A stretch of 15,567 bases of DNA from Solobacterium sp. (GTDB lineage Bacteria > Bacillota_I > Bacilli_A > Erysipelotrichales > Erysipelotrichaceae), in the NCBI GenBank assembly GCA_017475415.1, contig JAFVFM010000077.1, positions 1-15,567 of the forward strand. Direction: 5' to 3'. Positions 339 to 13,053 of the stretch are shown piece after piece (the first letter of the stretch is position 1; every line of letters starts with the position of its first letter). The position numbers were made by a program, and so were the translations under genes. The notes beneath the pieces are model-generated. The model was not told the origin of the DNA. It made no database searches and saw nothing but the letters and a program-made list of their open reading frames with translations.

Positions 339-366
339 TTGAAATAATTTGCCTACATGGTATGAT
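339..366 (+). promoter_or_regulatory. Extended -10 promoter for the aro operon leader
   Basis: The -35 TTGAAA (339-344) and -10 TATGAT (361-366) each match five of six consensus bases. They are 16 bases apart, and TGG directly before the -10 gives an extended -10. Counting 7 bases beyond the -10 puts +1 at A373, the first base of the ATG of the leader peptide. The promoter is read from sequence; the exact start site is inference. Confidence 0.72.
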
Positions 367-372
367 ACTGAT

Positions 373-411
373 ATGCAGATGAATAAGTTTTATTACTTTT
401 ATTTTAGATAA
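373..411 (+). CDS. Phe/Tyr leader peptide of the aro operon attenuator
   Basis: A 12-codon reading frame encodes MQMNKFYYFYFR and stops at TAA (409-411). Codons 6-11 (388-405) are TTT TAT TAC TTT TAT TTT: three Phe and three Tyr in a row, the two end products of this locus. No Shine-Dalgarno sequence precedes it. The predicted transcription start coincides with the ATG at 373, so translation would be leaderless; the in-frame ATG at 379 is the alternative. The frame stays open upstream to TTG 349, but that stretch lies before the predicted +1. By analogy with the pheA and trp leader peptides of enterobacteria, a ribosome short of charged tRNA-Phe or tRNA-Tyr would stall here and change folding of the RNA downstream. 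AT-richness favours Phe/Tyr codons by chance, so the hairpins that follow are important support. Confidence 0.62.
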   Translation: MQMNKFYYFYFR

Positions 412-513
412 GCAGGGCAAGAATAGATAATTGCCCACTTTATATTTGGCATTATCTATTATGGAAGAATAAATGTATATAGCCATATGGATAAGCCATA
501 TGGTTATTTTTTT
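412..513 (+). promoter_or_regulatory. Attenuator with mutually exclusive RNA hairpins upstream of aroB
   Basis: Four pairings are visible. (a) GGGCAA 415-420 pairs with TTGCCC 431-436. (b) AATAGATAAT 422-431 pairs perfectly with ATTATCTATT 451-460. (c) 452-459 pairs with 487-494 (one G-U), and 461-464 pairs with 483-486 across a one-base bulge (T460); this is an antiterminator. (d) 479-490 pairs with 496-507, the terminator. Pairing a excludes b, b excludes c, and c excludes d. A ribosome on the leader stop codon would cover about to base 421, blocking a and so favouring b and d (termination). A ribosome stalled on the Phe/Tyr codons would leave a free, so c could form and aroB would be transcribed. 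The pairings are seen; the switch is inference. Confidence 0.62.
479..513 (+). terminator. Intrinsic terminator abutting the aroB ribosome binding site
   Basis: The stem is 479-490 with 496-507 (12 bp, one G-U) around the loop ATAAG. Its core is CCATATGG paired with a second copy of itself. A seven-T run (507-513) follows and runs directly into the aroB Shine-Dalgarno GGAGGG (514-519). A terminator that ends where the ribosome binding site begins is typical of attenuation. It would also stop read-through from pheA. Confidence 0.8.
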
Positions 514-522
514 GGAGGGACT

Positions 523-1524
523 ATGCAACTAGAAGTAAAGACAAAAGATAAGATTTACCCACTCATATTAGAACGTGGAGCGATTCGTCATATCAAAGAC
601 TATATTCAACTAAATGGTGAAGCCTTTCTTATTAGTGATACAGGCGTACCAAAAGAATATAAAGAAATAATATTAGAGCAATTTCCTGAAGCTAAGCTGT
701 TTGAATTTAAACAAGGAGAAGCTTCTAAGAATTATAGAATCTTAGAATCCATCCATGAGGCAATGTTGGAAGCCCATCTTTCCCGTAAAGATTATGTTAT
801 TGCTTTAGGTGGAGGGGTAGTTGGAGATATTAGTGGTTTTGCGGCAGCTACTTATATGCGTGGTATTCGCTATATCAATATACCAACCACAAGCTTAGCC
901 CAAATTGATTCTTCCATTGGTGGTAAGACAGCTATTGATATGGGTAAGAAAAAGAATTGTGTGGGTGCCTTTTGGCAACCAGATGCAGTAATTGTTGATG
1001 TAGATACATTAAAGACATTAGATAAAAGGCAATTTCATAATGGTTTAGCTGAAGCAGTGAAGGCAGGTTTAATTAAAGATAAGGAACTCTTCTCTTTGTT
1101 TGAAAAAGGAAAGATAGAAGAAAATATAGAAGAAATCATTGAACGTTCTTTACGGATAAAAAAAGAAGTGGTAGAAAAGGATGAACGTGAACAAGGAGAA
1201 CGCAAACTCTTAAATTTTGGTCATAGTTATGGCCATGCATATGAAAGCTATTATGATTTTGACCAATATTTGCATGGTGAATGTGTGGCAATGGGTATGA
1301 TGACCATCTTAAAAAATGAAGAGATTAAAGAAAGATTAAAAATTGTATTAGAAAAATTGGAATTACCTATTTCGTGTGAAGCAGATAAGGGCGAAATTGC
1401 TAGACTTGTAATGCATGATAAAAAAGCAGACCATAATACTATCTCAATTGTGCAGGTAGATGAAATTGGAAAAGCACATTTAGAACAGTGGTCAATGGAA
1501 GAGATAAGGAGTCATTTAGGATGA
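523..1524 (+). CDS. aroB: 3-Dehydroquinate synthase
   Basis: This enzyme converts DAHP to 3-dehydroquinate, the second step of the shikimate pathway, using NAD and a divalent metal in the cytoplasm. The protein has 333 residues, slightly shorter than the usual 340-370. The NAD-binding GGGVVGD lies at residues 96-102, followed by the family stretch RGIRYINIPTTSLAQIDSS. The expected metal ligands are present: Glu177 in GLAEAVK, His234 in NFGHSYGH and His251 in LHGE. The start at ATG 523 is chosen because GGAGGG (514-519) sits four to eight bases upstream. The upstream ATG at 487 lies inside the terminator hairpin and adds residues with no family counterpart. This is the first structural gene behind the attenuator. 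It overlaps aroC by ATGA. Confidence 0.96.
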   Translation: MQLEVKTKDKIYPLILERGAIRHIKDYIQLNGEAFLISDTGVPKEYKEIILEQFPEAKLFEFKQGEASKNYRILESIHEAMLEAHLSRKDYVIALGGGVVGDISGFAAATYMRGIRYINIPTTSLAQIDSSIGGKTAIDMGKKKNCVGAFWQPDAVIVDVDTLKTLDKRQFHNGLAEAVKAGLIKDKELFSLFEKGKIEENIEEIIERSLRIKKEVVEKDEREQGERKLLNFGHSYGHAYESYYDFDQYLHGECVAMGMMTILKNEEIKERLKIVLEKLELPISCEADKGEIARLVMHDKKADHNTISIVQVDEIGKAHLEQWSMEEIRSHLG

Positions 1525-2618
1525 GAAATACAATAGGAAATCATATTACATTAACAATCTTTGGTGAATCACATGGAGAGATGATTGGCGCTATTCTAGA
1601 TGGTATACCTGCGGGAATAGAAATCGATGAAGCTTATATCGAACAACTAATGGATTTACGTAAAGCGAAAGGAACAATTTCCACATCGCGCAAAGAAGAA
1701 GATAAAGTAAGAATTGTATCTGGAGTCCGTAATGGGTTTGCGGAAGGAACACCAATTACTATTCTCATTGAAAATCGAAATGTGCGCAGTCAGGATTATG
1801 AAAGTGCCGCCTTCGTGCCTAGACCTAGCCATGCGGATTATAGTGGCTCTTTACGTTATAAAGGTTATGAAGATAGACGTGGTGGAGGCCATTTTAGTGG
1901 GCGATTAACAGCGGCATTAGTCGCAAGTGGGGCAATATGCATGCATATGCTAGAGAAAAAAGGTATATATATTGCAAGCCATATAAAAGAATTACATGGT
2001 ATTCACGATCGTGAATTTGAAAACCTAAATGATGATATAGTCAAATTAAAAGGGAAATATTTTGCGGTATTGAATGATGAAGTGGAAGAAAAAATGAAAG
2101 CGGAAATAGAAGATGCCAGATGCAAAAAAGATTCATTAGGTGGTGTATTAGAAACAGTGGTTGATGGATTAGATGCAGGTATCGGTAATCCTATGTTTGA
2201 TTCTTTAGAAAGCCTTCTTAGTCATGCGATATTTTCTATACCAGCGGTTAAGGGTATTGAATTTGGTGCAGGCTTTGCGCTTAAGGATATGTATGGTAGT
2301 GATGCGAATGATGCTTTTGGAATAAAAGAGAATGAAGTGGTTACCTTAAGTAATCATAGTGGTGGTATTCAAGGTGGAATTAGTAATGGCATGCCTATTC
2401 TTTTTCGCACAGTGATTAAACCAACACCAAGCATTGCCTCTCTTCAACAAAGTGTAGATTTAAATACATATCGTGAAGTGCAATTAGAAATACAAGGAAG
2501 GCATGATCCAGCCATCATTCATCGTGCTCGGATTGTAGTCGATTGTATGACCGCCTTCACTTTAGCTGATGTATTAGTGGGACAATTTGGCGAAGATTAT
2601 TTTGGAGAAAAAAGATGA
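1521..2618 (+). CDS. aroC: Chorismate synthase
   Basis: Chorismate synthase converts EPSP to chorismate, the last common step, using reduced FMN as a cofactor. The protein has 365 residues, normal for the family. Signatures are FGESHG with His18, GGGHFSGRLTA at 121-131 with His124, and GRHDPAIIHRA starting at 326. The start is the ATG at 1521, which overlaps the aroB stop as ATGA and has AGGAG at 1507-1511. A longer in-frame version from 1488 would add 11 residues before the conserved MRNTIGNHI beginning and has no ribosome binding site. The gene order is not the biochemical order: this last-step enzyme is encoded second. It is presumably co-transcribed and translationally coupled with aroB and the following fusion gene. 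Confidence 0.97.
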   Translation: MRNTIGNHITLTIFGESHGEMIGAILDGIPAGIEIDEAYIEQLMDLRKAKGTISTSRKEEDKVRIVSGVRNGFAEGTPITILIENRNVRSQDYESAAFVPRPSHADYSGSLRYKGYEDRRGGGHFSGRLTAALVASGAICMHMLEKKGIYIASHIKELHGIHDREFENLNDDIVKLKGKYFAVLNDEVEEKMKAEIEDARCKKDSLGGVLETVVDGLDAGIGNPMFDSLESLLSHAIFSIPAVKGIEFGAGFALKDMYGSDANDAFGIKENEVVTLSNHSGGIQGGISNGMPILFRTVIKPTPSIASLQQSVDLNTYREVQLEIQGRHDPAIIHRARIVVDCMTAFTLADVLVGQFGEDYFGEKR

Positions 2619-3859
2619 AGTTAGGTTTAATAGGATATCCCTTAGGGCATAGCTGGTCACCCGAAATACATCATTTCCTTTGTGGAGAGGACTATACTTT
2701 ATTTTCCTTGAAGGAAGAGGATATGAAAGAATTCTTAGAGAAAAAAGACTTCGATGGAATGAATATTACTATACCTTATAAAGAAAAAGTAATCCCATAT
2801 CTAGACGAAATGAGTGATGAGGTAAAAAGGATACAAGCTGTTAATTGTATAGCTAATCGTAATGGAAAATTAGTAGGTTACAATAGCGATGTGGAAGGTT
2901 TTCGTTATTTATTAGAAGCTAATGGAATAGACTATCATGGCAAAAAAATCGCGATACTTGGTAGTGGTGGGGCGATGAAGGCATGTTTAGCTGTATTAGA
3001 AAAAGGGAGTAATACAATCGATATTGTGAGTCGAACAGCTTCAAAAGATAGAATTGATTATACAGAATTCAAGAACAGAGCTAGTGAATATGAATTGCTG
3101 GTGAATGCTACACCGGTTGGTATTTATCCAAAGGAAGAAGAAATGCTTAATATCGATTTAGATGCTTGTGTTCATTTAAAAGCAGTTGTAGATATCATAG
3201 CGAATCCTTTATGTACCAGGCTTATGTTTGAGGCGAAGAAAAGAGGAATTAAAGCAGTAGGAGGCTTTGAAATGCTAGTGGCTCAAGCCTTATTTGCGGA
3301 AGAATTCTTTTTTGAAAAGGAAATAGAGAAAAGTAAAATTGAAGAATGCTTAACGTATCTTTACGAAAAAAGAAGAAATATTGTTTTGATTGGTATGCCT
3401 TCTTCTGGTAAATCTACAATCGCTTCTTATTTGGGTAAACGATTAAAAAAAGAAGTAATCGATTTAGATCAAATATTTGTGGAAAGAGAAGGGAAAGAAA
3501 TTTCCTCCTATTTTGAAGAACATGGAGAAGAAAGCTTCCGTAAGAAAGAAAGTGAATTGGTTAAAGAATTTAGTAAAAAAGAAGGAATGATTCTATCCTG
3601 CGGTGGTGGAGTAGTCGTAAAAGAAGAAAATATGCTTGCTTTGTCGCACAGAGGTTACATTATTTGGATAGATAGAGATTTAAATCTACTCGAAGCGACT
3701 GAAGATAGGCCATTAAGTTCTAATATAGAGGCCTTAAAAAAACGCTATGAAGAAAGAAGAGAATTATATGCATCCTATAGCGATATAGTGGTTCAAAATA
3801 ATACAACAATAGAAGAAGCAATTGAGGAAATATGTAGGAAGGTTGGATATAGAAAATGA
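2615..3859 (+). CDS. aroE-aroK: Fused shikimate dehydrogenase / shikimate kinase
   Basis: One 414-residue chain carries two consecutive pathway enzymes. Residues 1 to about 250 are AroE, which reduces 3-dehydroshikimate with NADPH. They show GYPLGHSWSP, NITIPYK with catalytic Lys56, GYNSD with Asp92, the nucleotide-binding GSGGA at 116-120 and a C-terminal GGFEMLVAQ. Residues about 256-414 are shikimate kinase: Walker A GMPSSGKST at 260-268, DLD at 283-285 for Mg and shikimate, GGG at 330-332, a lid with RPL, and a final RRELYASY segment. Each half has near-normal length with a short linker (about 245-255), so this looks like a working fusion rather than a frameshift artefact. Shikimate made by the first half is the substrate of the second, so channelling is possible but not shown. 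The gene overlaps both neighbours by ATGA. Confidence 0.95.
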   Translation: MKLGLIGYPLGHSWSPEIHHFLCGEDYTLFSLKEEDMKEFLEKKDFDGMNITIPYKEKVIPYLDEMSDEVKRIQAVNCIANRNGKLVGYNSDVEGFRYLLEANGIDYHGKKIAILGSGGAMKACLAVLEKGSNTIDIVSRTASKDRIDYTEFKNRASEYELLVNATPVGIYPKEEEMLNIDLDACVHLKAVVDIIANPLCTRLMFEAKKRGIKAVGGFEMLVAQALFAEEFFFEKEIEKSKIEECLTYLYEKRRNIVLIGMPSSGKSTIASYLGKRLKKEVIDLDQIFVEREGKEISSYFEEHGEESFRKKESELVKEFSKKEGMILSCGGGVVVKEENMLALSHRGYIIWIDRDLNLLEATEDRPLSSNIEALKKRYEERRELYASYSDIVVQNNTTIEEAIEEICRKVGYRK

Positions 3860-4872
3860 TTATTACATTAAAAAAGAATGCACCTCAAGAAGAGGTCGAT
3901 CATCTCTATGATGAATTTGAAGCGAAAGGTTTACAAGTAAATATCATTCAAGGTGAGCGCTTTAATGTATTTGGCTTAGTGGGTGATACTTCTACTTTGT
4001 CTGATCGTGACATACTTGCGAATGAATGGGTAGAAAATGTACAACGTGTATCAGCGCCATATAAACTGGCGAATCGTATGTTTCATCCTGAAGATACGAT
4101 TGTAGATGTAGGAGGAATAAAAGTAGGTGGTAAAGAAAAAATTGTCATCATTGGTGGTCCATGTTCAGTAGAAAATCGTGAACAGATTTGCCGCATAGGC
4201 AAAGAAGTAAAAGAGTGTGGAGCAGATATGATTCGTGGTGGCGCGTATAAACCACGTACATCACCTTACGCTTTCCAAGGCCTAGGTTATCAGGGCTTAT
4301 TGGATATGGTAGAAGCTAGAAGTGAAACAGGTTTGCCAATTGTAAGCGAAGTAATGAGTGCGGATAAGATTGATGAATTCGTTGAAAATGTAGATTTAGT
4401 ACAAATTGGTGCCCGTAATATGCAAAATTTTGATTTATTAAAGGCCGTTGGGCATATCAATAAACCTGTATTATTAAAACGAGGTATGTCGGCAACGATA
4501 GAAGATTGGATTATGTCTGCTGAATATATTATGGCAGCAGGTAATCCGAATGTCATATTTTGTGAGCGTGGTATACGTACTTTTGAAAAATATACACGAA
4601 ATACGATGGACCTTGCGGTAATTCCTATTTTAAAAGAAAAGACACATTTACCTGTAATTATTGACCCATCCCATGCAACAGGAGATTGGAAATTGATCGA
4701 ACCTATGTCTTTAGCAGCTATTGCGGCTGGTGCAGATGGTTTAATTATTGAAGTACATGACCAACCAGAGCGTGCATGGTCTGATGGTGCGCAATCTTTA
4801 AAACCTGAGAAGTTTGCAGAATTAATTAAGAAGGCGCGTGTTGTAGCTAAGGCTGTAGGAAGAGACGTATAA
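3856..4872 (+). CDS. aroF: DAHP synthase, type I-beta with N-terminal regulatory domain
   Basis: This is 3-deoxy-7-phosphoheptulonate synthase, the entry step joining phosphoenolpyruvate and erythrose 4-phosphate. The 338 residues equal the length of the Thermotoga maritima enzyme. Residues 1-65 or so form a ferredoxin-like domain, which in that enzyme mediates feedback inhibition by Tyr and Phe. The barrel shows GGPCSVE, GGAYKPRTSPYAFQG, DPSHATG and the metal ligands Cys103, His273, Glu299 and Asp310. No chorismate mutase domain is fused at either end, unlike Bacillus AroA. The start overlaps the preceding stop as ATGA, with AGGAAGG just upstream (near 3836-3842). With the leader attenuator, this gives the pathway two layers of Phe/Tyr control (inference from family knowledge). 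The symbol is by homology; some annotations use aroG or aroA for this enzyme. Confidence 0.95.
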   Translation: MIITLKKNAPQEEVDHLYDEFEAKGLQVNIIQGERFNVFGLVGDTSTLSDRDILANEWVENVQRVSAPYKLANRMFHPEDTIVDVGGIKVGGKEKIVIIGGPCSVENREQICRIGKEVKECGADMIRGGAYKPRTSPYAFQGLGYQGLLDMVEARSETGLPIVSEVMSADKIDEFVENVDLVQIGARNMQNFDLLKAVGHINKPVLLKRGMSATIEDWIMSAEYIMAAGNPNVIFCERGIRTFEKYTRNTMDLAVIPILKEKTHLPVIIDPSHATGDWKLIEPMSLAAIAAGADGLIIEVHDQPERAWSDGAQSLKPEKFAELIKKARVVAKAVGRDV

Positions 4873-6143
4873 TGCATATTTCTATACAAAAAGGCCAACC
4901 AAAAGAAAGTTATATTTCATTACCTGCTAGTAAGTCACTTATGCATCGTTATTTGATTGCGGCTGCTTTAGCGAATGGGGAGAGTAGTTTGTATCACTTT
5001 ACGCATAACGAAGATACCTTAGCGACTATGCATGCTTTAAAAAAACTAGGTGCTAGCTTTATACAAGAAGAAGATAGATTGTTGGTCAGAGGAATTTCTT
5101 CAACAATTCATTTAGAAGATACAGTAATCGACGCTCATGAGTCAGGTAGTACTCTACGTTTTTTGATTCCATTATTTTCGTTAAGTAATCAAAGAATAAA
5201 ATTTATAGGTAAGGGAAGATTGCTTGAAAGGCCACAATCGGTATATGAAAAAATCTTTACTGAAGAAGGGCTAAGCTTTAAGCATACTTTAGAATATATA
5301 GAAGTAGAAGGAGCACTAAAGGCAGGTAAATATAGTGTGGAAGGGAATATATCTTCTCAATTTATTACAGGTTTATTCTTTACTTTACCAATGTGTGAAG
5401 GGGATAGTGAAATTGAAATACTACCACCTATCGCCTCAGCATCCTATTTAAACTTAACTATAGATGTTTTATCTAAAGCAGGAATAAAAATAAGACAAGA
5501 AGGAAATCGTTATTACATAAAAGGTAAACAGAATTATCAACCATTTGATATAGATGTTCCTGCAGATGATTCGCAAGCCGCCTTCTTTATCGCCTTAGCA
5601 CAAATAGTAAAGGTACCAATTCATTTGGTGAATATGGATCATGATTCAAAACAAGGTGATCACATCATTAAAGATATAGTTGAAAAGATGGGAATGGATG
5701 TAGAAGAAAAAGAAAAAGGCTACTGTTTTAAAGATGGTGAATTAAAGGGTATAGAAATCGATTTAGAAGATTGTCCGGATTTAGGGCCAATATTATTTGC
5801 CTTAGCTACGCAAGCAAAAGGAACAACAACCTTCCTTCATACTGAACGCTTAAGAATAAAAGAGAGTGATCGTATACAAGCGATGAAAGAAGAATTAGCT
5901 AAATTAGGTTATAAAATAGAAGATGGTAATGATTGGGTAAAAGTATATGGGCATCATGAAGGAATAAATAGTAGGGAGCTATATGGTCATAATGACCATC
6001 GTATCGTAATGGCCTTAAGTATTCTTTCTACTTTATTTGAAGAAGAAATATATATTGATAGAGCAGAAGCGATAGAAAAAAGCTATCCAAAATTCTTTAA
6101 GGATTTAGAAAAGGTAGGTATACAAATTAAATATGATATCTAG
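4872..6143 (+). CDS. aroA: EPSP synthase (3-phosphoshikimate 1-carboxyvinyltransferase)
   Basis: This enzyme transfers the enolpyruvyl group of phosphoenolpyruvate to shikimate 3-phosphate. The protein has 423 residues, the usual size. Motifs are PASKS with Lys21, then Arg26; the phosphoenolpyruvate loop ESGSTLRF at 90-97; SSQFITGLFF; CPDLGPI; RIKESDR; and HNDHRIVMA. The loop keeps the Gly equivalent to E. coli Gly96 (Gly92) but has Phe where E. coli has Pro101, and Ser-Thr where E. coli has Thr-Ala. It is closer to the clostridial type than to the enterobacterial class I enzyme. The start ATG shares one base with the aroF stop (TAATG). The 3' end overlaps tyrA by 11 bases. Confidence 0.96.
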   Translation: MHISIQKGQPKESYISLPASKSLMHRYLIAAALANGESSLYHFTHNEDTLATMHALKKLGASFIQEEDRLLVRGISSTIHLEDTVIDAHESGSTLRFLIPLFSLSNQRIKFIGKGRLLERPQSVYEKIFTEEGLSFKHTLEYIEVEGALKAGKYSVEGNISSQFITGLFFTLPMCEGDSEIEILPPIASASYLNLTIDVLSKAGIKIRQEGNRYYIKGKQNYQPFDIDVPADDSQAAFFIALAQIVKVPIHLVNMDHDSKQGDHIIKDIVEKMGMDVEEKEKGYCFKDGELKGIEIDLEDCPDLGPILFALATQAKGTTTFLHTERLRIKESDRIQAMKEELAKLGYKIEDGNDWVKVYGHHEGINSRELYGHNDHRIVMALSILSTLFEEEIYIDRAEAIEKSYPKFFKDLEKVGIQIKYDI

Positions 6144-6984
6144 AAGTACGAAAATATGCATTATAGGTTTAGGTTTATTAGGTGGTAGTTATGCAAAAGG
6201 CTTATATCAAGCAGGCTACCATGTAAGAGGTATTGATATTGATCCAGAAGCTATCTCTTTTGCGAAGCGTATGCATTGGATTGAAGAAGGCGGGGATGAT
6301 GTTAGTTTAGTAAAAGATTGTGACATAGTGATTTCTGCTTTATATCCAAAGACGTTTATTTCTTGGATAAAAGAAAATAAAGGCTTACTAAAAAAAGGTG
6401 CTATTCTTACGGATGTAGCTGGTATTAAGCGGGAAGTAATAGAAGAAATCAATAAGGAATTAGATAGTGAAGTAGAATTTATTGCCTGCCATCCTATGGC
6501 TGGACGTGAATTTAAAGGGATACAATATGCAGATTGTTCCTTATTTGAACAAGCGAATTTCTTAATTGTCCCTACACAAGAGAATTCTCAAAAGGCAATT
6601 GGAGTAGCAGAAGATATAGCCAAGATATTGAAATTTAAACATATTTCTTGTTTATCAGCGGAGGAACATGATGTAATGATAGGCTTCTTATCACAACTTA
6701 CACATGTGATAGCGGTATCGTTAATGAATGTGAACGATAATTCACATTTAGCGGAATATACAGGAGATAGTTTTCGGGATTTAACACGTATTGCGAAAAT
6801 AAATGAAGAATTATGGCCAGAATTATTCTTATTGAATCAAGATAATCTAGTTAATGAAATTGATGCATTTACACAAGAACTACAAAGTTTTAAATCCTTA
6901 TTAGAGAGCGGGGATATTGAAGGAATGAAACAAAAACTCATTACTTCAACAAATAGAAGAAAGGCTTTTGATAAAGGCAGATGA
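6133..6984 (+). CDS. tyrA: Prephenate dehydrogenase
   Basis: TyrA oxidatively decarboxylates prephenate to 4-hydroxyphenylpyruvate, the Tyr precursor. The protein has 283 residues. It starts with a Rossmann fold (IIGLGLLGGS, then GIDIDPE, which favours NAD over NADP) and has HPMAGREFKG with His120 and SQLTHV with His191, then the helical dimerisation region. No ACT domain follows, so this is the short form; feedback sensitivity cannot be judged from sequence. The start overlaps the aroA end by 11 bases and is preceded only by a weak purine-rich site, so translational coupling is likely. The stop overlaps aroQ as ATGA. Together with pheA upstream, it shows the locus is aimed at Phe and Tyr, matching the leader codons. 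Confidence 0.95.
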   Translation: MISRSTKICIIGLGLLGGSYAKGLYQAGYHVRGIDIDPEAISFAKRMHWIEEGGDDVSLVKDCDIVISALYPKTFISWIKENKGLLKKGAILTDVAGIKREVIEEINKELDSEVEFIACHPMAGREFKGIQYADCSLFEQANFLIVPTQENSQKAIGVAEDIAKILKFKHISCLSAEEHDVMIGFLSQLTHVIAVSLMNVNDNSHLAEYTGDSFRDLTRIAKINEELWPELFLLNQDNLVNEIDAFTQELQSFKSLLESGDIEGMKQKLITSTNRRKAFDKGR

Positions 6985-7418
6985 AGATATTAGTATTAAA
7001 TGGCCCTAATATGAATATGTTAGGCATTCGTGAAAAAGAAATCTATGGTGAAAAAAATTTTAATCTCTTAGTGAAAACAATAGAAGACTATGCCAAACGC
7101 AAAGGTATAGAAGTAGATTGTAGGCAAAGTAATCATGAAGGGGACTTGGTTGATTGGATTCAAAGTGCATATTTTCAACACTATGATGGTATTGTAATGA
7201 ATCCAGCTGCTTATACGCATACAAGTATCGCCATAGCTGATGCGATTAAGGCTATCGCTCCACTACCAGTGGTAGAAGTACATATTTCAGATATTGCAGA
7301 GAGGGATGAATTTAGACATCGTTCTTTCTGTAAGCCATATTGTATAGCCCAAATTAAAGGTAAGGGCTGGGATGGCTACTTAGAAGCGATAGATTTATTA
7401 ATGAAAGAAGGTATATAG
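6981..7418 (+). CDS. aroQ: 3-Dehydroquinate dehydratase, type II
   Basis: This enzyme dehydrates 3-dehydroquinate to 3-dehydroshikimate, the third pathway step. The 145 residues and motifs identify the type II (dodecameric) family: NGPNMNMLGIRE at 7-18, Tyr22 in EIYG, SNHEGDLVDWI, NPAAYTHTSIA starting at Asn74, and EVHISDIAERDEFRHRS with catalytic His101. The stop is TAG at 7416-7418. It is the last gene of the overlapping aro set. No hairpin terminator is visible before the next promoter at 7443-7451, so some read-through into the following two genes is possible. Confidence 0.96.
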   Translation: MKILVLNGPNMNMLGIREKEIYGEKNFNLLVKTIEDYAKRKGIEVDCRQSNHEGDLVDWIQSAYFQHYDGIVMNPAAYTHTSIAIADAIKAIAPLPVVEVHISDIAERDEFRHRSFCKPYCIAQIKGKGWDGYLEAIDLLMKEGI

Positions 7419-12898: not shown

Positions 12899-12969
12899 CA
12901 GGGGCAGAGAGAATCGAACTCCCATCAGCGGTTTTGGAGACCGATGTACTACCATTGTACGATGCCCCT
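12899..12969 (-). tRNA. tRNA-Trp (anticodon CCA)
   Basis: The 71-base gene folds into a full cloverleaf. The acceptor AGGGGCA/TGCCCCT is perfect (7 bp), the D stem is GTAC/GTAC with the loop AATGGTA, and the anticodon loop is CTCCAAA (CCA, reading UGG). The variable loop is TGAT, and the T arm is GGGAG-TTCGATT-CTCTC. The discriminator is G, as expected for tRNA-Trp. The anticodon stem has a T-C mismatch at pair 27-43 and only four good pairs. The 3' CCA is not encoded and must be added. Confidence 0.93.
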
Positions 12970-12979
12970 ACAAAAAAAG

Positions 12980-13053
12980 TGACGCGTACGGGATTCGAAC
13001 CCGTGAGTGCCGCCGTGAAAGGGCGGTGTGTTAAGCCGCTTCACCAACGCGCC
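12980..13053 (-). tRNA. tRNA-Glu (anticodon TTC)
   Basis: The 74-base gene has the acceptor GGCGCGT/ACGCGTC (one G-U), a D arm with GCGG in the loop, the anticodon stem CCGCC/GGCGG with the loop CTTTCAC (UUC, reading GAA/GAG), and the T arm ACGGG-TTCGAAT-CCCGT. The discriminator is A, and CCA is not encoded. It is transcribed first, with tRNA-Trp 10 bases downstream. Confidence 0.95.

Follow-up and report, generated by a model that had tools for sequence, protein, structure and literature searches.

The stretch of DNA analysed in this study (the window; 15,567 nt, Solobacterium sp.) belongs to a 70%-complete MAG, and 25 of the 34 named relatives of its aroB were Solobacterium or Erysipelotrichaceae, many of them from ruminant or deer gut. 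Two tRNA genes were found on the minus strand, at 12899-12969 and 12980-13053. The features at the 5′ end of the window, with the evidence in brackets, are as follows.

3-317: 3′ end of pheA, with the C-terminal ACT domain at 3-314 (Pfam)
339-366 (+): putative sigma70-like promoter, TTGAAA at 339-344, a 16-nt spacer and TATGAT at 361-366 (sequence)
373-411 (+): leader peptide frame of 12 codons, MQMNKFYYFYFR and a stop (sequence and codon selection in 50 copies)
388-405 (+): six Phe/Tyr codons in a row, TTT TAT TAC TTT TAT TTT (codons -7 to -2)
405-413 (+): segment 1, the leader end with Arg codon and stop, GATAA; partner B′ at 449-458 (pair counts, MFE fold)
415-436 (+): hairpin A:A′, GGGCAA (415-420) with TTGCCC (431-436), which would trap segment B (pair counts)
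422-435 (+): segment B (AATAGATAATTGCC), partner B′ (pair counts)
448-464 (+): segment B′ (GGCATTATCTATTATGG), which can pair with segment 1, with segment B or with the terminator 5′ arm and loop
479-513 (+): intrinsic terminator, stem 479-490/496-507 and T run 507-513 (pair counts)
483-497 (+): sequence that pairs with B′ in the antiterminator (CCATATGGATAAGCC) and shares positions with the terminator 5′ arm and loop
523-1524 (+): aroB, 3-dehydroquinate synthase, first gene of the putative attenuated unit (Pfam PF01761, PF24621)
1518-2618 (+): aroC, chorismate synthase (PF01264)
2615-3859 (+): aroE-aroK fusion, shikimate dehydrogenase and shikimate kinase (PF08501, PF01202)
3856-4872 (+): aroF-type DAHP synthase (PF00793)
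4872-6143 (+): aroA, EPSP synthase (PF00275)
6133-6984 (+): tyrA, prephenate dehydrogenase (PF02153, PF20463)
6981-7418 (+): aroQ, type II dehydroquinase (PF01220)

The leader frame starts at ATG 373, with an in-frame alternative ATG at 379, and ends with AGA (406-408) and TAA (409-411). A first-pass annotation had described a 12-codon frame with six consecutive Phe/Tyr codons at 388-405 and a stop at 409-411, as well as a terminator whose T run adjoins the aroB ribosome binding site. Both were confirmed in the sequence; GGAGGG (514-519) directly follows the T run (507-513), and the aroB ATG is at 523. The leader had also been placed before a whole chorismate-Phe-Tyr operon. The chorismate genes and tyrA are downstream as described, but pheA lies 5′ of both the promoter-like sequence and the leader and is therefore outside; attenuation is predicted for the chorismate genes and tyrA, without pheA.

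Folding of positions 370-525 gave -39.5 kcal/mol; 200 dinucleotide shuffles averaged -26.65 (sd 3.11), and none was as low (z = -4.13). GATAA occurs three times, in the leader end, segment B and the terminator loop, so that all three copies would compete for a single TTATC strand. The helix between segment 1 and B′ could be extended upstream into the Phe/Tyr codons.

The promoter-like sequence is 6 nt from the leader ATG, and the transcript may therefore begin at or beside this ATG. Among 50 distinct copies of the element (see below), such a sequence was found 5′ of the leader ATG in 41, as against a mean of 6.2 (maximum 14) in 200 shuffles. The gap to the ATG was 5-9 nt in 17 of the 50, including the window (shuffle mean 0.9, maximum 4). 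The leader start of each copy was set at the ATG furthest upstream from which the frame has no more than 23 codons, and L041 and L107 are among the 17 only by virtue of such an upstream start. No Shine-Dalgarno-like match of at least 4 bases was present in the 5-9 nt gap of these 17 copies, which suggests that in the window's group the leader is probably translated from a leaderless or near-leaderless mRNA. Copies from other genera (L104-L117 and L062) mostly have a gap of 16-24 nt and a GAGG-like site.

Occurrence and codon selection among relatives

An alignment of 27 leaders (A1; 26 distinct; L054, L058, L059 and L062 left out) was the basis of covariance model R1, which contains the leader codons, so that its matches are not independent of the Phe/Tyr frame. 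Within the genus, R1 matched 32 of 60 genomes at E ≤ 0.1, 27 of these at E < 1e-14. Across the order, at E ≤ 0.01, 55 of 315 genomes had a match; they represent 14 of 79 genera, all of family f1, and the weakest has no clear leader. In the class, 4 of 395 genomes matched (E ≤ 0.001, strict filters), again all from f1. When 36 genus members were compared, a strong match was present in 18 of the 24 with aroB and in none of the 12 without it. In five of the six aroB-bearing members that had no strong match, aroB abuts pheA, and in G032, also with aroB and no strong match, a Phe/Tyr frame was not found within 420 nt. Six loci in which pheA abuts aroB (L036, L039, L046, L049, L063 and L064) gave no R1 match in the 2.5 to 5 kb 5′ of aroB. 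Only L039 among them has a short Phe-rich frame, about 580 nt 5′ of pheA, with an opposite-strand frame in between.

The 72 R1 matches were reduced to 51 for analysis, representing 50 distinct sequences. The 21 excluded were 11 duplicates recognised by equal score (L066, L070, L078, L089, L097-L100, L102, L103 and L115), four opposite-strand matches (in L068, L106, L107 and L120) and six weak matches (L093, L094, L095, L120, L121 and L122). Among the weak ones, the short frame was absent in L094 and L120 and doubtful in L093 and L095, and L121 and L122 duplicate the sites of L093 and L094. Near-identical pairs remain among the 50 copies (e.g., L118/L119, L088/L090 and L057/L061), and the inspected loci leave out G173 (E 0.009) and L163. 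The weak matches in L093 (G063) and L094 (G008) lie 5′ of aroC, with aroB not detected in G008; they may be relatives of the element that have decayed or diverged.

Other gene neighbours were also seen in family f1. At L107 the element is 5′ of a DAHP synthase gene, and at L118, with a five-Phe leader, it precedes a gene whose product is a TrpX-like substrate-binding protein (252.7 bits, cut-off 390); L119 is identical to L118 at the start. Leaders that R1 did not match at E ≤ 0.05 were found before aroB in Traorella (MKIVNNAFFYFYR, L058) and Faecalimonas umbilicata (a Phe/Tyr leader, MNYLVSVFYFYR, L059, upstream of 5001).

Phe or Tyr is encoded by 254 of the 300 codons at positions -7 to -2 in the 50 distinct copies. 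In-frame TWN codons had a pyrimidine as the third base in 254 cases and a purine in 1, and the pyrimidine:purine counts in the other two frames were 50:51 and 50:126. A third-base bias in one frame only indicates selection for Phe/Tyr rather than for T-richness, and this test is independent evidence, which the list of R1 hits is not. The order of Phe and Tyr varied among copies and only their content was retained. Loss of the frame with retention of the hairpins, named in the first-pass annotation as counter-evidence, was not seen, all 50 distinct copies having the frame. Short ATG frames with at least five Phe/Tyr codons in the six before the last occurred 15 times in 647,760 strand-bases (the window plus 32 loci, L033-L064), by a criterion that overlooks leaders poorer in these codons; 13 were leaders 5′ of aro genes and 2 were antisense within other genes.

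The leader ends were AGATAG in 19 copies, AGATAA in 16, GGATAG in 4 and AGATGA in 3 of the 50. GATA was retained even where the stop was shifted, as in L010 (TCC-TGA-TAA) and in L062, L106 and L110 (TTT-TAG-ATA), and was lost in L109 and L117. Its retention at shifted stops argues that the leader end works as RNA.

Conserved helices and folding with ribosome positions

Pairs were counted on the 26 distinct rows of A1. The terminator was paired in 98.1% of cells, and both sides had changed at 6 of its 10 pairs. Pairing of the leader end with B′ reached 96.7% (30.8-45.1% when slid), and that of B′ with the terminator arm, i.e., the antiterminator, 90.3% (29.1-43.3% when slid), with double changes at 3 pairs; B:B′ and A:A′ were paired in 87.6% and 80.4% of cells, respectively. 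Slid controls for all helices ranged from 29.1 to 46.5%. The numbers of double-change pairs are less telling, not being far above shuffles: they were reached in 23 of 500 shuffles for the set of terminator and A:A′, 97 of 500 for B:B′, 85 of 500 for the antiterminator and 134 of 500 for the leader end with B′. In duplex energies, self-pairing was better than cross-species pairing for five helices, and none of 2000 permutations was as low in each case, although kinship of the rows inflates this permutation test and the other pairing measures. For A:A′ the values were -10.86 for self-pairing, -9.18 for cross-pairing and -8.45 for the reversed-strand control, the control being near the cross-pairing value. 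These counts support the helices expected of an attenuation switch, including the mutually exclusive antiterminator. The comparison thus bears out the competing hairpins of the first-pass annotation and adds arms to the switch that it had not described. A GTTTC-like conserved stretch 3′ of A′ (A1 columns ~66-70; window ~437-441) has no role in the switch model.

Simple folding calculations were made with ribosomes placed on the leader, the footprint being assumed. For the window before the terminator is made, B′ was held by segment 1 or B at 0.78 with no ribosome. This value fell to 0.17-0.26 when any of codons -6 to -2 occupied the A site and was 0.61-0.66 when the Arg or stop codon did. The means were flatter than the window, 0.68 with no ribosome, 0.44 at codon -5 and 0.68 at the stop (46 copies, 43 from codon -3 on; L104, L105, L108 and L117 dropped out, no antiterminator partner having been identified in them). 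When internal pairs are counted as well, the total pairing of B′ was almost flat (means 0.73, 0.62 and 0.71). At equilibrium with the terminator 5′ arm present, the antiterminator was favoured in nearly every ribosome state, its mean occupancy being 0.58 with no ribosome, 0.63 at codons -6 to -3 and 0.50 at the stop (L042 skipped), and 0.71, 0.71 and 0.61 for the same states in the window. Ribosome position shifted the pairing of B′ in the expected direction before the terminator was made, and had little effect at equilibrium. Equilibrium folding is accordingly insufficient as proof of the switch, and the model requires kinetic trapping of B′.

Proposed attenuation and alternative explanations

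The element very probably serves ribosome-mediated transcription attenuation of aroB-aroC-aroEK-aroF-aroA-tyrA-aroQ in response to the supply of Phe and Tyr. With no ribosome on the leader, segment 1 would take B′ and the terminator would form. When Phe and Tyr are ample, a ribosome at the stop codon would cover segment 1 and A, and the freed segment B would take B′, again leading to the terminator. When Phe or Tyr is short, a ribosome stalled on the Phe/Tyr codons would cover segment 1 while A:A′ persists and keeps B trapped; free B′ would then pair with the terminator 5′ arm and loop, and RNA polymerase would read into aroB-aroQ. Comparison among relatives shows the leader frame with its codon selection, the terminator and the alternative helices; from these we infer translation, stalling, read-through and the kinetic order. 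Codon selection together with conserved alternative stems supports the leader-and-attenuator reading put forward in the first-pass annotation.

Stalling could instead depend on the nascent peptide and a free ligand rather than on uncharged tRNA, as in tnaC and ermC. The conserved leader end, Arg or Gly followed by a stop, would suit such a mechanism, but it is very unlikely here: the order of Phe and Tyr is free to vary as long as the content is kept, and the conserved end is mostly retained at the RNA level when the stop shifts. The same leader end bears on the idea that the region is a ligand- or protein-binding RNA (of the riboswitch or TRAP type) and that the short frame plays no part in it. 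A structured leader carrying a terminator, the sub-threshold matches of the trpB motif RF04312 in the window and G225 (see below), and the conserved GTTTC 3′ of A′, which the attenuation model leaves unexplained, are all in keeping with that idea; it is nevertheless highly improbable in view of a codon selection confined to one frame and a pairing arm that is the leader end itself.

Genes often have terminators after them, and pheA ends at 317, just upstream of the leader, so that the region might be a plain terminator of pheA next to an unrelated small expressed protein, with no regulation. A promoter-like sequence separates pheA from the leader in the window, however, and the antiterminator and leader-end pairing are conserved; the element is also retained in L051, L057 and L061, where the gene 5′ of it is not pheA. 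This explanation is exceedingly improbable.

Wider occurrence and comparison with known systems

Searching 370-525 against Rfam at E ≤ 1 returned only a sub-threshold match of the trpB motif (RF04312), with 34.4 bits at 420-515 against a gathering threshold of 59. The best sub-threshold score was 49.7 bits in G225, and members above gathering were found in none of 196, 392 and 8 genomes. Sub-threshold matches coincide with Phe/Tyr leaders in L155, L156, L158, L159 and L161; an aromatic leader was absent at the matches in L157, L160 and L162. The trpB motif is described as a strong riboswitch candidate with more than 900 members, for which its authors do not rule out a classic attenuator (PMC11109978). 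By that description the window resembles the motif in having a hairpin and terminator and in its weak match, and differs from it in scoring below gathering and in the riboswitch classification. The motif may be an attenuator class, a reinterpretation resting on sub-threshold matches since no member above gathering was found.

RF02863, listed in Rfam as Enterococcus sRNA_2410, did not match the window at E ≤ 1 (gathering 61 bits). The consensus of this family begins in S-Y-F-R-stop codons, and that end pairs downstream. In L158/L164 (family f10), found through a sub-threshold trpB match, leader MKNINITSSNRSYFFSYFR precedes a TrpX-like gene (323 bits, cut-off 390), and L164 1297-1478 matched RF02863 with 76.2 bits. 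A site in Enterococcus gallinarum (L199 1157-1345) scored 89.5 bits and has leader MKLLLSPQLNIAYFSYFR; a Streptococcus suis record scored 36.2 bits, below gathering, and has leader MLQMCQNHSANHTYFYGYFR. The leaders in these two species are both 5′ of genes for ABC substrate-binding proteins. Among 257 genomes of the class, RF02863 had five sites in four genomes, one of them above the cut-off. A weak site in L198 (~1463-1513) has a Trp-codon leader (MNTFNVQLNNWRNWSY) instead; the gene that follows resembles a sodium-dependent transporter, with a score below the cut-off. Phe/Tyr leaders in the same genome match this RNA family too.

By its name, sRNA_2410 of E. faecium appears to be the source of RF02863; it is reported as 195 nt long with two transcripts on Northern blots, and the words "leader" and "attenuat-" are absent from the main text of that paper (PMC5593968). 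RF02863 is like the window element in having a Phe/Tyr leader whose end pairs downstream, and unlike it in that its target is a transporter and it is classed as an sRNA. From these sites it appears to be an attenuator with a Phe/Tyr leader peptide that controls a TrpX-like ABC transporter rather than a free sRNA. S. suis trpX is reported to be under a Trp T-box (PMC9382623), and TrpX-like copies with Phe/Tyr leaders may therefore transport other aromatic amino acids.

In a survey of TrpX-like genes (matches in 64 genomes), 8 of 30 inspected loci had a clear aromatic leader, six of which were Tyr runs, in 6 of 8 family f17 loci. These f17 leaders (L169, L176, L178, L179, L183 and L185) have five to seven Tyr codons and lie ~160-275 nt 5′ of the TrpX-like match, with a differently built competing-repeat terminator region. 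In Ilyobacter polytropus (L202 ~63-152), a frame with three consecutive Trp codons (MMAKFTWWWQNKIDQYNKSQVNQVLSKSA) and T-rich hairpins, without an Rfam match, precedes genes for ABC substrate-binding proteins; no such leader was found in Peptoclostridium (L201). Phe/Tyr-rich leaders were also seen before a BrnQ-like transporter gene (MNSTLTNLYDYSYYC in L159, G358; MNSNLTTRFYYSYYC in L161, G336), where the codons are an odd match for the annotated substrate.

Taken together, there is a little less than an even chance that a broad and mostly overlooked class of aromatic leader-peptide attenuators exists in Firmicutes and perhaps Fusobacteria, including the window element, sRNA_2410 and the trpB motif, in which the 3′ end of the leader would itself be a switching arm and Phe/Tyr or Trp codons would set the specificity. 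If so, sRNA_2410 and the trpB motif would be parts of an attenuator class instead of an sRNA and a riboswitch, and the element would offer a candidate role for two Rfam families of unknown function.

Ribosome-mediated attenuators govern the pheA, trp and his operons in Proteobacteria. No Rfam family of this kind was matched at E ≤ 1 by the window, which differs from these attenuators in having three competitors for one strand, in mixing Phe and Tyr codons and in its predicted control over most of the shikimate pathway (for background on attenuators, see PMC9413887 and PMC1262725). For Firmicutes, the first-pass annotation had set such attenuation against the usual T-boxes and TRAP and had seen no T-box signature. 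The latter observation agrees with the lack of a T-box (RF00230) match in the window at E ≤ 1, by which a T-box was rejected for the aroB leader, but the former contrast has to be amended, leader-peptide attenuation having precedents in the phylum (PMC2965389, PMC9413887, PMC8632094). T-boxes were present in all 60 genomes searched, with 9 in the window's own genome, which points to a choice made at the level of the operon and not to loss of T-boxes. Three loci were scanned in family f2 of the same order, and in two of them (L027 and L028) a T-box lies 5′ of the aro region, with UUC at what we take, by the usual rule, to be the specifier position. A swap of aro regulators between families f1 and f2 is possible.

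His leader-peptide attenuators are predicted in Erysipelotrichales (six species), the Bacillus cereus group and Peptostreptococcaceae (PMC9413887), and a His leader is reported in bacilli (PMC2965389). They resemble the window element as predicted leader-peptide attenuators of Firmicutes, also in the same order, for which T-boxes are a common alternative; unlike it, they have histidine codons and his and hisS-type genes. A leucine-rich attenuator peptide is known in S. aureus, to judge from the title of the report (PMC5794164). The uORFC-13-1 motif 5′ of aroF in Acholeplasma (24 representatives; PMC8632094) likewise combines a terminator and a downstream shikimate gene with a short frame that contains one or more Phe codons, but it concerns aroF only and its description mentions no six-codon Phe/Tyr run. 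The trpL leader of Sinorhizobium meliloti is also an attenuator leader peptide, with a transcript reported to start at the ATG (PMC7298713); it is a Trp leader of another phylum, and the start in the window is predicted from the promoter-like sequence.

Among the matches listed in a search of open papers, as distinct from subscription papers and preprints, no Phe/Tyr leader before aro genes was found for Erysipelotrichaceae. As far as these sources describe them, leader-peptide attenuators of his and leu genes and the Acholeplasma aroF uORF are known from Firmicutes, and the Phe/Tyr leader of an aroB-type operon is new. Its new details are a TTATC strand with three GATAA partners, one of which is the end of the leader frame, and a predicted start near the ATG in 17 of 50 copies. 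The element would provide control of shikimate and Tyr genes in a family of mostly gut bacteria. The switch is compact, three partners competing for a single strand and the stop-codon end of the leader frame being one of them, and the transcript is probably leaderless or near-leaderless in part of the family.
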